This document shows, piece by piece, positions 40,454 through 51,823 of a stretch of DNA of 64,000 nt. Origin of the DNA: Terriglobales bacterium (lineage in GTDB: Bacteria > Acidobacteriota > Terriglobia > Terriglobales > Acidobacteriaceae); assembly GCA_035651995.1 (NCBI GenBank), contig DASRER010000034.1, positions 124,001 to 188,000 on the forward strand. The letters are read 5' to 3'. The notes below the pieces were generated by a model that was given only the letters and a program-made list of their open reading frames with translations, ran no database searches and was not told where the DNA came from. Each line of letters opens with the position of its first letter. Positions within the stretch are counted from its first letter, which is position 1. The translations under genes and the position numbers were made by a program.

Positions 40454-40904
40454 TTTCCAGGCGGACGGCGCCAGACCGGAACGAATCGCGCTTCACAATT
40501 AGCTGCGTCATCTCGAAAGTGTTGAGCGCCTTTTGCATTCGTCGGCGCCACATCCGTGACGCTCGGGCGCGGAATCACAAAGACCATCCAAATGACGTGC
40601 CGATATGCCCATCTGGGCCGGGCGTAGAACTGCACGCAGTTGATCAGATGGCCTCAAATTGCCGGCCGTAGAACTGCAAGCAGTTGATCAGATGGCTTCA
40701 AATTGGGCGAGAGAAGGTACCGAAGCTGCGGATGAGAAGCAAAAAGACAGCCAATTTGCCATCGAACGCCAGGTTCGCGCCCGTTTTCGCTTGCTGACCA
40801 CAATCCTGCTCACGCCAAAACTGACACCAGGCCGTTTCCGGCCAATCGGCGTTTCGCAAGCAATAAGATTTAAGTGCTTACATTTCTGCTAGATTGAAGC
40901 AAAC
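40454..40904. other. Intergenic region with a 44-bp tandem duplication
   Basis: About 450 bases between the amidohydrolase gene and the tRNA. No credible gene. It contains the tandem repeat at 40617-40704 and an AT-rich stretch before the tRNA (TAAGATTTAAGTGC, about 40864), probably its promoter. Confidence 0.5.
40617..40704. repeat. Tandem duplication, 2 x 44 bp, each with a hairpin
   Basis: Units at 40617-40660 and 40661-40704 differ at only 3 of 44 positions. Each contains the inverted repeat AACTGC-(AC or AA)-GCAGTT and a TGATCA palindrome. No open frame is conserved between them. Confidence 0.85.
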
Positions 40905-40981
<77 letters not shown>

Positions 40982-47884: not shown

Positions 47885-50356
47885 TTATGCGGTCGTGAAC
47901 GCCAGCGTGAGCAGCGTCTTCTGCTCCATCTCGTGCGCCTTGGCCGATCCGGTGGCAGGGCTCGCGCTCGCCGAGCGCTTCACCGAACGCACCGGTGTCG
48001 GCTTCGCCAGGCGCCGCAGCCGCGGCCCCACGTAGAACAGCGCGCCCATGTTTGCCGGCTCCTCCTGCACCCACACCACTTCGCGCGCCTTGGGATGCCG
48101 CCCCAGTTCCGCCGCCAACTGCGCTTCAGGAAACGGATACATCTGGTCGAGGAAAACAATCGCCGTGGCCGTGTCTTTCCGCTTCTGCCGCTCCTGCCTC
48201 AGTTCGTGCCCGATCTTGCCGGTGCAGATCAGCACGCGCTCGGCGTTGGTGACCTCGGCGTCGGGCACTACCGGCAGGAACGGTCCGCGCTCCAGGTCTT
48301 CAATCTTCGACGACGCCAGCGGATGCCGCAGCATGCTCTTCGGCGTGAACACCACCAGCGGCTTGCGCCATTTGCGCAGCGCCTGCCGCCGCAGCAGGTG
48401 GAAGTACTGCGCCGCCGTCGAGGGCTGTGTGATCTGCATGTTGTCTTCGGCCGCGAGCTGCAGAAAGCGCTCAATGCGCGCGCTGGAGTGCTCCGGCCCC
48501 TGTCCCTCGTAGCCGTGCGGCAGCAGCAGCACCACGCCGGAGAGCAGCCCCCACTTGTCCTCGCCCGCGCTGATGAACTGGTCAATGATGATCTGTGCGC
48601 CGTTGGCGAAGTCCCCGAACTGCGCCTCCCACCCCACCAGCGCCTCCGGATAATCGCGGCTGTAGCCGTACTCAAAGCCGAGCACGCCCTGCTCGGAAAG
48701 CGTCGAGTTGTAGATCTCGCAGCTCGCCTGGTCCGGCGCCAAATGTTGCAGCGGCACGTATTGCTCTTCCGTCTCGATATCGATCAGCGCCGCGTGACGC
48801 TGGTTGAAGGTGCCGCGCCGCGTGTCCTGCCCCGAAAGCCGGATCGGCGTCCCCTGCGTCACCAGCGACGCGAACGCCAGCGCTTCGGCCATGCCGTAGT
48901 CCACCGCGCGCTTCCCCGCCGCCATCTCGGCGCGCTGCTCGAGCAGCTTTTTGATCTTCGGATGCACGTGAAAGCCCTCCGGCGCGCGCGCCAGTCCCTC
49001 GCCCAGGCGCTGCAACTCCGCCCGCTGCACGCCGGTCTCTACCTCGTACTCCGGCTTCCACGCTCCGCCGCGATACGCCGACCAGTACCCCGGCAGCGTT
49101 GCCATCTTCGGCTTCTTCTTGTAGCCGCTCGCCTGGCGCTGCGCTTCCATCAGTTGCTCGCGAATGCGCGCCGCCGTTGCGCTCGCATCCACCCCTATGC
49201 GCTCGGCGTAGATTTCCCACGTCCGCCGGCGCGCCTCGATCCGCTTGTACAGCAGCGGCTGCGTCACCGTCGGGTCGTCCACTTCGCTGTGCCCGTGCCG
49301 GCGATAGCCGATCAGGTCAATCACAACGTCGCTGCCGAACTCGTAGCGATACTCCGCCGCCCACCGCGCCACGCGAATCACCGCTTCCGGATCGTCGGCG
49401 TTCACGTGGAAGACGGGGATCGGCAGGCGCTTGGCAATGTCGGCGGCAAAACGCGAGGTGTGCAGCTCCTCCGGCGACGTGGTGAAGCCGATCAGGTTGT
49501 TCACCACCACGTGCAGCGTTCCGCCCACGTCGTATCCGGCCACGCCGCTCAGGTTCAGCGTCTCGGCCAGGATTCCCTGCCCGGCAAACGCGCCGTCGCC
49601 GTGCAGCACGATCGGCAACACCGCCTGTTTACCGTCGGCGCCGCGCCGCACCTGCTTCGCCCGCGCGCGCCCGATCACCACCGGATCAACCGCTTCCAGA
49701 TGGCTGGGATTTGACACCAGGTGCAGGTTGAGCTTCTTGCCGCCCGCGGTCGTGTATTCCCCCGTCGCGCCCACGTGATACTTCACGTCGCCCGAGCCCA
49801 GCACGCTGCGCGGGTCCACATCCTCGAATTTGGCGAAGATGTCAGCCGCCGGCCGCCCCACGATGTTGCCCATCACGTTCAGCCGCCCGCGATGGCTCAT
49901 GGCCAGCATGATCAGTTCGGCGCCGCGCTCACCCGCCGCGTTCATCGCTTCGTCCAGCAGCGGGATCAGCGACGCGTTGCCCTCCAGCGAAAACCGCTTC
50001 GTGCCCAAATAGCGCGACTGCAAGACCTGCTCGAACAGTTCCGCCGTGATCAGCCGCTCCAGCACGCGCTCCCGGTCCACCGGCGCCGGCTCGCTCTCCA
50101 TGCGCTCGGCCACCCAGCGCCGCCGCTCCCGATCGTTGATGTGCATGAACTCGGCGCCAATCGTGCCCGAGTAGATGGCCCGCGCCTCCTCCGCCGCCTC
50201 GCCCCGCAGTTGTTCCAGCTCGGGATGCGGCTCCGGACGCAGATGTCCCAGCGGATCGAGGTCCGCCTGCAGGTATCCATACCGGCGAAACGCCTCAAAC
50301 ACCTGCTCGCGTTCGCCAGTCGCGGTATTGCTCACGGACTTGAGCGTGGTCGCCAT
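47885..50356 (-). CDS. sucA: 2-oxoglutarate dehydrogenase E1 component
   Basis: An 823-residue thiamine-diphosphate E1 enzyme that decarboxylates 2-oxoglutarate and succinylates the E2 lipoyl group in the TCA cycle. Motifs: YGYLQADLDPLGHLRP at the N-terminus, LIMLAMSHRGRLNVM, HGDGAFAGQGI...NNLIGFTTS (ThDP motif), GYRRHGHSEVDDP and a C-terminal transketolase-like half with HGYEGQGPEHSSAR. It is about 100 residues shorter than E. coli SucA, mostly at the N-terminus. No sucB lies next to it. Confidence 0.95.
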   Translation of the reverse strand: MATTLKSVSNTATGEREQVFEAFRRYGYLQADLDPLGHLRPEPHPELEQLRGEAAEEARAIYSGTIGAEFMHINDRERRRWVAERMESEPAPVDRERVLERLITAELFEQVLQSRYLGTKRFSLEGNASLIPLLDEAMNAAGERGAELIMLAMSHRGRLNVMGNIVGRPAADIFAKFEDVDPRSVLGSGDVKYHVGATGEYTTAGGKKLNLHLVSNPSHLEAVDPVVIGRARAKQVRRGADGKQAVLPIVLHGDGAFAGQGILAETLNLSGVAGYDVGGTLHVVVNNLIGFTTSPEELHTSRFAADIAKRLPIPVFHVNADDPEAVIRVARWAAEYRYEFGSDVVIDLIGYRRHGHSEVDDPTVTQPLLYKRIEARRRTWEIYAERIGVDASATAARIREQLMEAQRQASGYKKKPKMATLPGYWSAYRGGAWKPEYEVETGVQRAELQRLGEGLARAPEGFHVHPKIKKLLEQRAEMAAGKRAVDYGMAEALAFASLVTQGTPIRLSGQDTRRGTFNQRHAALIDIETEEQYVPLQHLAPDQASCEIYNSTLSEQGVLGFEYGYSRDYPEALVGWEAQFGDFANGAQIIIDQFISAGEDKWGLLSGVVLLLPHGYEGQGPEHSSARIERFLQLAAEDNMQITQPSTAAQYFHLLRRQALRKWRKPLVVFTPKSMLRHPLASSKIEDLERGPFLPVVPDAEVTNAERVLICTGKIGHELRQERQKRKDTATAIVFLDQMYPFPEAQLAAELGRHPKAREVVWVQEEPANMGALFYVGPRLRRLAKPTPVRSVKRSASASPATGSAKAHEMEQKTLLTLAFTTA

Positions 50357-51259
50357 GCCAATTCATTAGATTATCAGCGCCGGGATGCGTCGCGCGAGGG
50401 CCGGCTGGCGAATCGTCCTCGAGGGTGCCCCATGTCGGCGCGTTTTGTGCGCGGATTTGAGGACTTCCCTTGGCGGACATGACCGAGAAGTCCGAACTCC
50501 ACGCTGTAGCGACGGGCGCCCTCGCCCGTCGGCGCCACCCCACGAGGTGGAAGCACCGGGCCTTGGCCCGGTGAAATCAGGCTCCGGTGGAAGCACCTGG
50601 CTTTAGCCCGGTGAAATCGGGCTCCGGTGGAAGCACCGGGCTTTAGCCCGGTGAAATTCCAATCACAAAGAGAAGCCGCCGCGCAGGAGCCGGTACGGCG
50701 ACTAAGCGGCCGTTTTCCCCCGCCCGGCGATACGACTGCACCACAACAAAATCGTCGCCCCGGAGCCCTCCGCGGGCGAACTGACTTCCGGTGGAAGCAC
50801 CGGGCTTTAGCCCGGTGAAATTCCAATCACAAAGAGAAGCCGCCGCGCAGGAGCCGGTACGGCGACTAAGCGGCCGTTTTCCCCCGCCCGGCGATACGGC
50901 TGCACCACAACGAAAATCGTCCCTCCGCACGGAAACTGACTCCCCGGTGGAAGCACCGGGCTTCAGCCCGGTGACATCGGGCTGCAAGAGAAGCCGCCGC
51001 GCAGGAGCCGGTACGGCGACGAAGCGGCGGTTTTCCCCCGCCCAGCGATACGGCTGCACCACAACGAAAATCGTCGCGCTGCACGCGAACTAACTCCCGG
51101 TGGAAGCACCGGGCTTTAGCCCGGTGAAATCCAATCACAAAGAGAAACCGCCGCGCAGGAGCCGGTACGGCGACTAAGCGGCGAGCTTATCAGCGGAAAG
51201 GGCGCGAGCGCATTCGCGCCCGGTCGCGGCTCTTGCTCTAAAGGGGCACGGCCAACAGC
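50357..51259. other. Non-coding region filled by long repeats
   Basis: About 900 bases between sucA and the small Cys/His protein. Open frames here are produced by the repeats and repeat each other's sequence. The sequence before 50545 is unique and may contain the sucA promoter. Confidence 0.7.
50546..51185. repeat. Array of six 32-bp hairpin repeats within about 150-160-bp long repeats
   Basis: The 32-bp core GGTGGAAGCACCGGGCTTTA-GCCCGGTGAAAT occurs at 50546, 50586, 50626, 50790, 50946 and 51099 with 0-3 changes each. Each forms a perfect or near-perfect 8-bp CACCGGGC/GCCCGGTG hairpin. From the third copy on, each is followed by a conserved tract (CACAAAGAGAAGCCGCCGCG..., GGAGCCGGTACGGCGACTAAG, CCCCCGCCC.GCGATACG), giving periods of 164, 156 and 153 bp and a partial last unit to about 51185. 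Spacing is unequal and the intervening sequence is itself repeated, so this is not CRISPR. Confidence 0.9.
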
Positions 51260-51823
51260 ATGCCGTCAGACGGGTTCGGCCGCCTGACGCCTCATGGCGC
51301 TTGCCTTTCCACAGCCCCGCGCACTACGCTCGATCTTCCCTTGAACAACTTCCAGAACTGCTCTTACGCCGCCCTCACGCCGGCGCCGCAAGTCCTTTCT
51401 CCGGCTGATTTTGCCTCCAACCCCTGTACTTTGCCTGATCTGGCGCGAATTTTCGCGCAAGCCGATGATTCTGTTAGACCGGGTGGGGAGGGAATACCCC
51501 CACGCCACGCCGCCCCGCGCTGCAACTTCTACAAGCCCGACGGCCGCCGTTGCGGCTCCCCTGCCGTCCGCGGACGCCGCCGCTGCTACTTCCATCAGCG
51601 CCTGTTCACGCCCGCGCGCCGCGACTACAGCCTTCCTCCCATCGAGGACGCGCACTCCCTCCACGCCGCCGTGCTCCAGGTGCTCCGCGCCATCGCCGAC
51701 GGCGCCGTTTCACCGCACGACGCCCGGCTCATGCTCTACGGCGCGCAAATCGCCGCTTCGAATCTCAAGAACCTGCTCAGGGAAGACGATCACCACTTCC
51801 GGGGAGAGGACAACCAGGGCTGA
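51260..51823 (+). CDS. Small Cys/His protein (C-x-FYKPDG-x2-C type), 187 aa
   Basis: The frame starts at an ATG at 51260, but the first ~85 residues look unconserved, so the true start may be later. The core RCNFYKPDGRRCGSPAVRGRRRCYFHQR has three Cys and a His spaced C-x8-C-x9-C-x2-H and could bind zinc. A helical C-terminal half (LHAAVLQVLRAIADGAVSPHDARLMLYGAQIA) follows. I recall similar multi-copy proteins in Acidobacteriota genomes but no function. It directly follows the long repeat array. Confidence 0.6.
   Translation: MPSDGFGRLTPHGACLSTAPRTTLDLPLNNFQNCSYAALTPAPQVLSPADFASNPCTLPDLARIFAQADDSVRPGGEGIPPRHAAPRCNFYKPDGRRCGSPAVRGRRRCYFHQRLFTPARRDYSLPPIEDAHSLHAAVLQVLRAIADGAVSPHDARLMLYGAQIAASNLKNLLREDDHHFRGEDNQG

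Follow-up and report, generated by a model that had tools for sequence, protein, structure and literature searches.

The repeat array at 50545-51129 of the window is a real composite REP cluster, biologically ordinary in kind, and consists of six head-to-tail copies of a hairpin termed REP1 (GGTGGAAGC-ACCGGGCTTTAGCCCGGTG-AA), all on the plus strand. The window is the whole stretch of 64,000 nucleotides that was analysed, corresponding to positions 124001-188000 of contig DASRER010000034.1 (C34) in assembly GCA_035651995.1 from a Terriglobales bacterium, whose genome (G000, 3.66 Mb) is represented by 48 contigs. In the designations used below, C stands for contig, G for genome (those other than G000 being relatives), L for extracted locus and R1 for the hairpin model. 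REP1 was probably moved by a particular group of RAYTs, after which the RAYT would have been lost and the hairpins amplified together with local DNA. What is new here is a RAYT group matching the hairpin format, the apparent orphan state of REP1 in its own genome, and a bias in its orientation; the array is a minor side effect of a kind to be expected. An acidobacterial hairpin family tied to a specific RAYT group allows genomes with and without that RAYT to be compared, and opens to test whether transposition or cellular use maintains REPs and how REP clusters acquire flanking DNA.

Structure of the array and its surroundings

Two periods were detected by Tandem Repeats Finder, one of 40 bp (50546-50657, 2.8 copies) and one of 154 bp (50624-51182, 3.6 copies, score 837); the array opens with two 40-bp units, which are followed by 3.6 units of 153-164 bp. 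A repeat finder returned six hairpin copies of 51 nt at spacings of 40, 40, 164, 156 and 153 nt, and all six were recovered by a covariance model which had been built in part from four of them. Copies 1 (50545-50576) and 2 (50585-50616) belong to the first and second 40-bp units (50544-50583 and 50584-50623, respectively). Copy 3 (50625-50656, also identified by its fold) opens long unit u1 (50624-50787, 164 nt), in which the hairpin is joined to a locus-specific partner sequence. Copy 4 (50789-50820) opens u2 (50788-50943, 156 nt), copy 5 (50945-50976) opens u3 (50944-51096, 153 nt) and copy 6 (51098-51129) opens the truncated unit u4 (51097-51182, 86 nt). Units u1, u2 and u4 were delimited by Tandem Repeats Finder and unit alignment and u3 by unit alignment, all on the plus strand. 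The original reading of a composite repeat, a hairpin nested in a longer tandem unit, is correct. Its count of six hairpins was also correct; the partner had been assigned to three of them and is begun by four, since three complete long units and the truncated u4 carry it.

Based on aligned columns with gaps excluded, u1 and u2 are 96% identical, u1/u3 and u2/u3 89%, and u3/u4 88%; over 86 columns (gaps excluded), u4 is 99% identical to u1 or u2. The variation among units and the partial last unit were therefore as first described. The hairpin is followed by ATCGGGCT in u3 and in the second 40-bp unit, and by a CCAATCAC stretch in u1, u2 and u4; because u3 shares ATCGGGCT with the second 40-bp unit, unlike u1, u2 and u4, the units look mosaic. 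All four long units have CC one base ahead of the GTGG tag, and the end point of u4 is the 3' arm of an imperfect palindrome in the partner.

A DNA search of the same genome with the long unit gave full-length matches only in the array. The other matches were to the hairpin or to short stretches (E 0.13 or worse), and nothing beyond short chance stretches corresponded to the partner of approximately 120 bp. Only the hairpin is dispersed in the genome searched, and the partner is local; of the two elements proposed for a genome-wide search, the 32-mer proved to be widespread and the longer unit to be restricted to its own locus. A folded function for the partner was rejected because its fold equals that of shuffled DNA in three units (z -0.4, 0.0 and 0.0), and the short palindromes once ascribed to it did not hold up in that comparison.

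The array was correctly placed between sucA, encoding the 2-oxoglutarate dehydrogenase E1 component (47885-50356, minus strand; E1_dh/Transket_pyr/OxoGdeHyase_C), and an open reading frame for a small Cys/His protein (51260-51823, plus strand). As both are read outward, the array lies between divergent genes. The Cys/His reading frame had no Pfam match at E<=1. Homologs were identified at two other loci of the same genome (L252:1970-2275 and L028:587-1015) and beside the RAYT of G069 (L097:246-602), with the motif C-x9-C-x10-C-Y-[FY]-H in common, which indicates that the reading frame belongs to a genuine family, represented more than once in the genome. Located 14 nt to the left of the array is a GTAG-tagged palindrome of a second family, REP2 (GTAGCGACGGGCGCCCTCGCCCGTCG, 50506-50531, plus strand), which was identified from its exact copies in the genome and from its fold (z = -3.7 for 50506-50539).

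A dedicated function for the array is improbable. At Rfam gathering thresholds a tRNA was the sole match in the whole window, and no small RNA was supported. A scan of 50340-51600 revealed no promoter-like sites and two terminator-like sites, against 1.5 in shuffles, and 50500-51200 had no match at E<=1e-3 in plasmid and phage collections.

The REP1 hairpin family

REP1 comprises a GTGGAAG tag, an 8-bp GC stem and a TTYA-type loop in 31-32 nt. Folded as single-stranded DNA, it reaches -10.1 kcal/mol (z = -3.7), and none of 200 shuffles was as good. Variation in the lower stem takes the form of paired changes (CACC/GGTG, CGCC/GGCG, CGCG/CGCG). In an alignment fitted to the model, 95.7% of stem cells were paired and cells with a double change numbered 28 versus 9.2 in shuffles; pairs changed on both sides (3 versus 2.8) and pair types (7 versus 7.0) were not in excess. 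The stem is conserved through compensatory change, a statement which refers to a model-fitted alignment in which only the cell count exceeds shuffles.

With the covariance model, at least 41 REP1 matches at E<=1e-3, and 84 listed at E<=1, were found in the genome, 150 of 4398 first-look candidates having been scored. Using a crude gene caller, 35 of 42 sites were intergenic, 4 were inside an open reading frame and 3 overlapped one. Exact hairpin matches in a named genome collection carried Acidobacteriota titles for all six stretches. Among 200 genomes sampled across the class, REP1 matches at E<=0.01, often weak, were obtained in 116, and in 13 of the 200, the present genome included, the best match reached E<=1e-6.

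REP1 frequently forms a module with a second hairpin, which lacks the tag, has a TTNA-type loop and, at many of the dispersed sites, starts approximately 16 nt downstream. Scored strictly, on a minimum stem of 5 inside 70 nt, this second hairpin was present at 15 of 42 sites in this genome, at 13 of 22 sites in G223 and at 3 of 19 sites in G054, compared with 51 of 5000 random 70-nt windows. One array copy owes its place among the 15 solely to the REP1 hairpin that comes next in the array, and none of the four long units contains the second hairpin. A single inverted REP1 pair was seen in this genome (C28:13732/13833). In G223, which has kept a RAYT of the group described below, inverted REPIN-like pairs occur at C11:62802/62856, C11:308363/308484 and C14:132651/132755.

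The family resembles the REPs and BIMEs of the GTAG superfamily, as described by Di Nocera et al. 2013 (PMC3733652) and Nunvar et al. 2010 (PMC2817692), in carrying GTRG on one side of a short GC-rich palindrome, in being dispersed and mostly intergenic, in forming tandem clusters with flanking DNA, and in bracketing RAYTs in relatives. It differs in its GTGGAAG tag, in the 3-nt gap between tag and stem, in the second TTYA-loop hairpin downstream, and in array copies which are all head-to-tail. The six window copies carry GTGG and those around the G069 RAYT carry GTAG, both within the GTAG/GTRG definition of the tag; the 8-bp stem and 31-32 nt length likewise fall within 20-40 bp with a stable stem of 6-13 bp. 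The gap (AAG; 3-4 nt in most copies beside RAYTs of the group) exceeds the 0-2 nt of an RNAMotif descriptor for REPs from a single paper (PMC6006769), which is narrower than the general definition. REP families are usually present in more than 100 copies, dispersed and mainly extragenic, according to PMC2817692; for REP1, the 41 matches at E<=1e-3 amount to fewer than 100 copies, with 35 of 42 sites intergenic by the crude caller. REP orientation alternates in a BIME, which sets it apart from the six plus-strand copies of the array. The TIRtrons of Acidobacteria, with their TIRYT genes, are alike in combining HUH tyrosine transposases and repeats on either side, and one set of these repeats makes up a family; many of the described TIRs share GGGGWSAS, and they are called unrelated to REPs in PMC3733652. 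An acidobacterial genome paper mentions many short repeats in general (PMC3174227). No description of the REP1 hairpin was found in the passages searched from literature on acidobacterial REPs, on REPs with RAYTs and on REPs near stop codons.

RAYTs in relatives and in the genome itself

The hairpin model was run on 88 RAYT loci: 3 from the genome itself, 29 from a family-wide sample, 27 from four relatives picked for exact hairpin matches and 29 from six relatives picked for several hairpin copies. An R1 match at E<=0.01 was obtained at 15 of them, two of which (L188 and L200) cover overlapping stretches of a single contig, with matches in common. In a tree of 85 RAYTs, which omits two fragments (L121 and L123) and one sequence of fewer than 80 residues, L193, L189, L194, L202, L097, L200 and L204 form one group with moderate support (86/89). 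A label test on this tree set 11 marked rows against only the 3 from the genome itself and is uninformative on clustering.

Six of these seven RAYTs have the hairpin close on both sides, in inverted orientation in five cases and direct in one; for the seventh, which is close to the beginning of a contig, a single copy was found at a distance of 1.2 kb. RAYTs of the group lying between inverted hairpins, with tags GTGGAAG, GTGGGAG or GTAGAAG, were found in G223, G258, G284, G074 and G069. The hairpin is not exclusive to the group, since matches also occur near RAYTs outside it (L105, L199 and L201; partial or weak at L195, L191, L084 and L070).

A profile of the seven RAYTs was run on the 200 genomes, and loci were ranked by score, with those used to build the profile excluded. 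Six of the nine next-best loci (L215-L223) have a same-format hairpin within 300 nt, tagged GTGGAAG at L216, L219, L220 and L223, and GGAGGGAG at L215 (575-606) and L218 (1308-1339, 1414-1445 and 2004-2035). No such hairpin was found within 300 nt at L217, L221 and L222, nor at any of the other 16 returned loci (L224-L239), judged by R1 at E<=0.01 or by tag and stem; L226, L232 and L235 gave full-length R1 matches at E 0.12-0.76 only. The hairpin format is paired with one RAYT group in these relatives, and same-format hairpins in related Acidobacteria are probably moved by that group. Class-wide, the best REP1 match reached E<=1e-6 in 5 of 6 genomes in which the profile of the group scored 200 bits or more and in 8 of 194 others (p 2.9e-6), an association which is circular in part, the profile having been derived from genomes chosen for REP1 copies, and which was left out of the main evidence.

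Three PF01797 (Y1_Tnp) matches in the present genome, on C19, C20 and C25, correspond to RAYTs, and none has a REP1 match at E<=0.01 in flanks of up to 1.5 kb. The C20 RAYT (C20:12864-13205) lies between inverted GTAG-CCCACAGC palindromes (L001:1423-1442 and 1986-2005), which are probably a third REP family of this genome. The C19 RAYT has one copy of REP2 (GTAG-CGACGGGCG...) upstream and three downstream, the latter in composite units of 97 and 90 nt; in all, 28 exact REP2 copies were found in the genome, that beside the array included. No clear REP was seen in the flanks of the C25 RAYT.

The seven-RAYT profile found no member of the group in this genome. Its best scores there were 63 bits for the C19 gene and 62 bits for the C25 gene, versus 195-265 bits for the group and its nearest relatives; the remaining scores were 26, 20.4 and 18.1 bits. 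The 20.4-bit match (E 9e-4, C42:46141-46233) lies inside a 58-residue reading from ATG (MRPTRESATSNRQTYFVSSQTAGRRRLFQ..., L243:1480-1656), which resembles the N terminus of the RAYT group and sits just downstream of a palindrome that is REP-like by eye; this relic beside REP-like palindromes suggests a lost transposase. As the three RAYTs are outside the group and only a fragment resembles it, REP1 looks orphaned here. The likeliest case is that this genome holds REP1 as an orphan family; alternatively, the matching RAYT gene could fall in a gap of the assembly (48 contigs, completeness 99.35%). Compared with the REPtron as set out in PMC3733652, a RAYT gene with its own REPs on either side, RAYTs of the group in relatives are similarly bracketed by same-format hairpins; the present genome differs in having the hairpins with no RAYT of the group found, two of its RAYTs carrying other REPs and the third none that could be seen. 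An associated RAYT-type protein was the right lead: a RAYT is present for the neighbouring REP2 and one of the group stands beside REP1 in relatives, and none of that group was found here.

Orientation at gene ends and origin of the array

The position of REP1 relative to genes was counted with a simple codon-bias gene caller, which is crude, after the 42 sites had been collapsed to 29 clusters; the distance cut of 150 nt was chosen after the sites had been viewed. The tag side lies within 150 nt after a co-oriented stop codon in 17 of the 29 clusters and the tail side in 1 (sign test p 1.4e-4). When gene threshold and distance were varied in nine combinations, the direction never changed, with ratios that ran from 10:1 and 12:1 to 18:6 at the weakest. 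In G054, in which no RAYT of the group was found, the ratio was 10:3 (19 sites, p 0.09), and in G223, which has one, 10:7 (22 sites, p 0.63). These sites are samples, 22 of 33 listed matches in G223 and 19 of 27 in G054; 41 of 43 matches were used, one G223 site and one G054 match having been dropped as each was beside or on another site. REP2 in the present genome gave 10:5 over 22 clusters (copies at the C19 RAYT excluded), and the difference from REP1 was not significant (p 0.07).

This bias could mean that REP1 was recruited, after loss of the RAYT, to act directionally in RNA at the 3' ends of genes, where it would delay the release of ribosomes or protect or shape mRNA ends, and that the array is a local expansion which may act in the leader of the Cys/His gene. 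We regard this explanation as unlikely. The constancy of the bias and the higher ratio in G054 than in G223 speak for it, as does a report that, in E. coli, REPs located no more than 15 nt from a stop codon stall ribosomes (PMC12306157). The array itself falls outside the pattern, because it sits between divergent genes and not behind a stop codon; the uncertain difference between REP1 and REP2, the crude gene calls, the post hoc cut and the sampling of G223 and G054 weaken the case, and strand-selective insertion could give such a bias without any function. Tentatively, loss of the RAYT may leave hairpins to be kept mainly as one-way post-stop RNA signals, with copies in roomy intergenic regions decaying to composite arrays. 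If so, G000 and G054 would represent an 'orphan' state and G223 an 'active' one, with inverted pairs and no orientation bias.

The origin we prefer for the array, past transposition of REP1 followed by amplification with local DNA, draws on the same pattern at other loci. Direct repeats were sought in seven regions. Units of a hairpin plus local DNA were identified at the REP1 loci on C20 (111 and 122 nt), C21 (109 nt) and C46 (107 and 112 nt), in addition to the 97- and 90-nt REP2 units on C19, and each of these arrays has its own partner. C27 contained only a 25-nt pair, C21 near 81 kb a hairpin pair at 33-nt spacing, and C38 no direct-repeat units; hairpins spaced 165 and 163 nt apart were found at the G069 RAYT. 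REP clusters in which the hairpin is reiterated in tandem with flanking DNA are described by Di Nocera et al. (PMC3733652). Together with the parallel arrays, they make the window array a further case of a described structure.

REP1 hairpins would have been spread by a RAYT of the group, a TnpA-REP (HUH single-strand transposase), which was then lost from this genome and left orphan hairpins behind. Several REP1 hairpins may have inserted close together in one orientation at the array locus. Replication slippage or unequal exchange between hairpins could then have copied a hairpin plus the DNA up to the next one (approximately 120 bp); we infer this to be the likeliest origin of the array, and the end of u4 at the 3' arm of the palindrome suits a hairpin-linked breakpoint. 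Slippage, which had been proposed beforehand, is plausible; rolling amplification, offered as its alternative, found no evidence. Several observations count against this history: no REP1-bracketed RAYT was found in the 48-contig assembly, R1 matches also lie near some RAYTs outside the seven-member group, the support for that group in the tree is moderate, all six copies point the same way, in contrast to the clusters of Di Nocera et al. (PMC3733652), and the tag-to-stem gap is outside the one published descriptor.

A different source of amplification would be the C19 RAYT, the owner of REP2, if it cross-mobilised or nicked REP1. The REP2 copy beside the array invites this idea, as do the four REP2 copies flanking that RAYT, three of them in a composite array. 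A TnpA-REP is also reported to have cleaved a GTGG-tagged substrate at a CC site (PMC8266576), and CC precedes GTGG by one base in the long units. REP1 and REP2 are, however, unlike in tag spacing, stem and loop, and the C19 RAYT is outside the seven-member group in the tree, which makes such a role improbable. That the copy number is an artefact of a draft assembly in 48 contigs is very improbable, as the units differ by scattered substitutions and indels, the array is interior to a 221-kb contig and the same pattern occurs at other loci.

Elsewhere in the window, at 40617-40705, a 44-bp unit is present in two tandem copies, which end approximately 200 bp before a tRNA gene (40905-40978).
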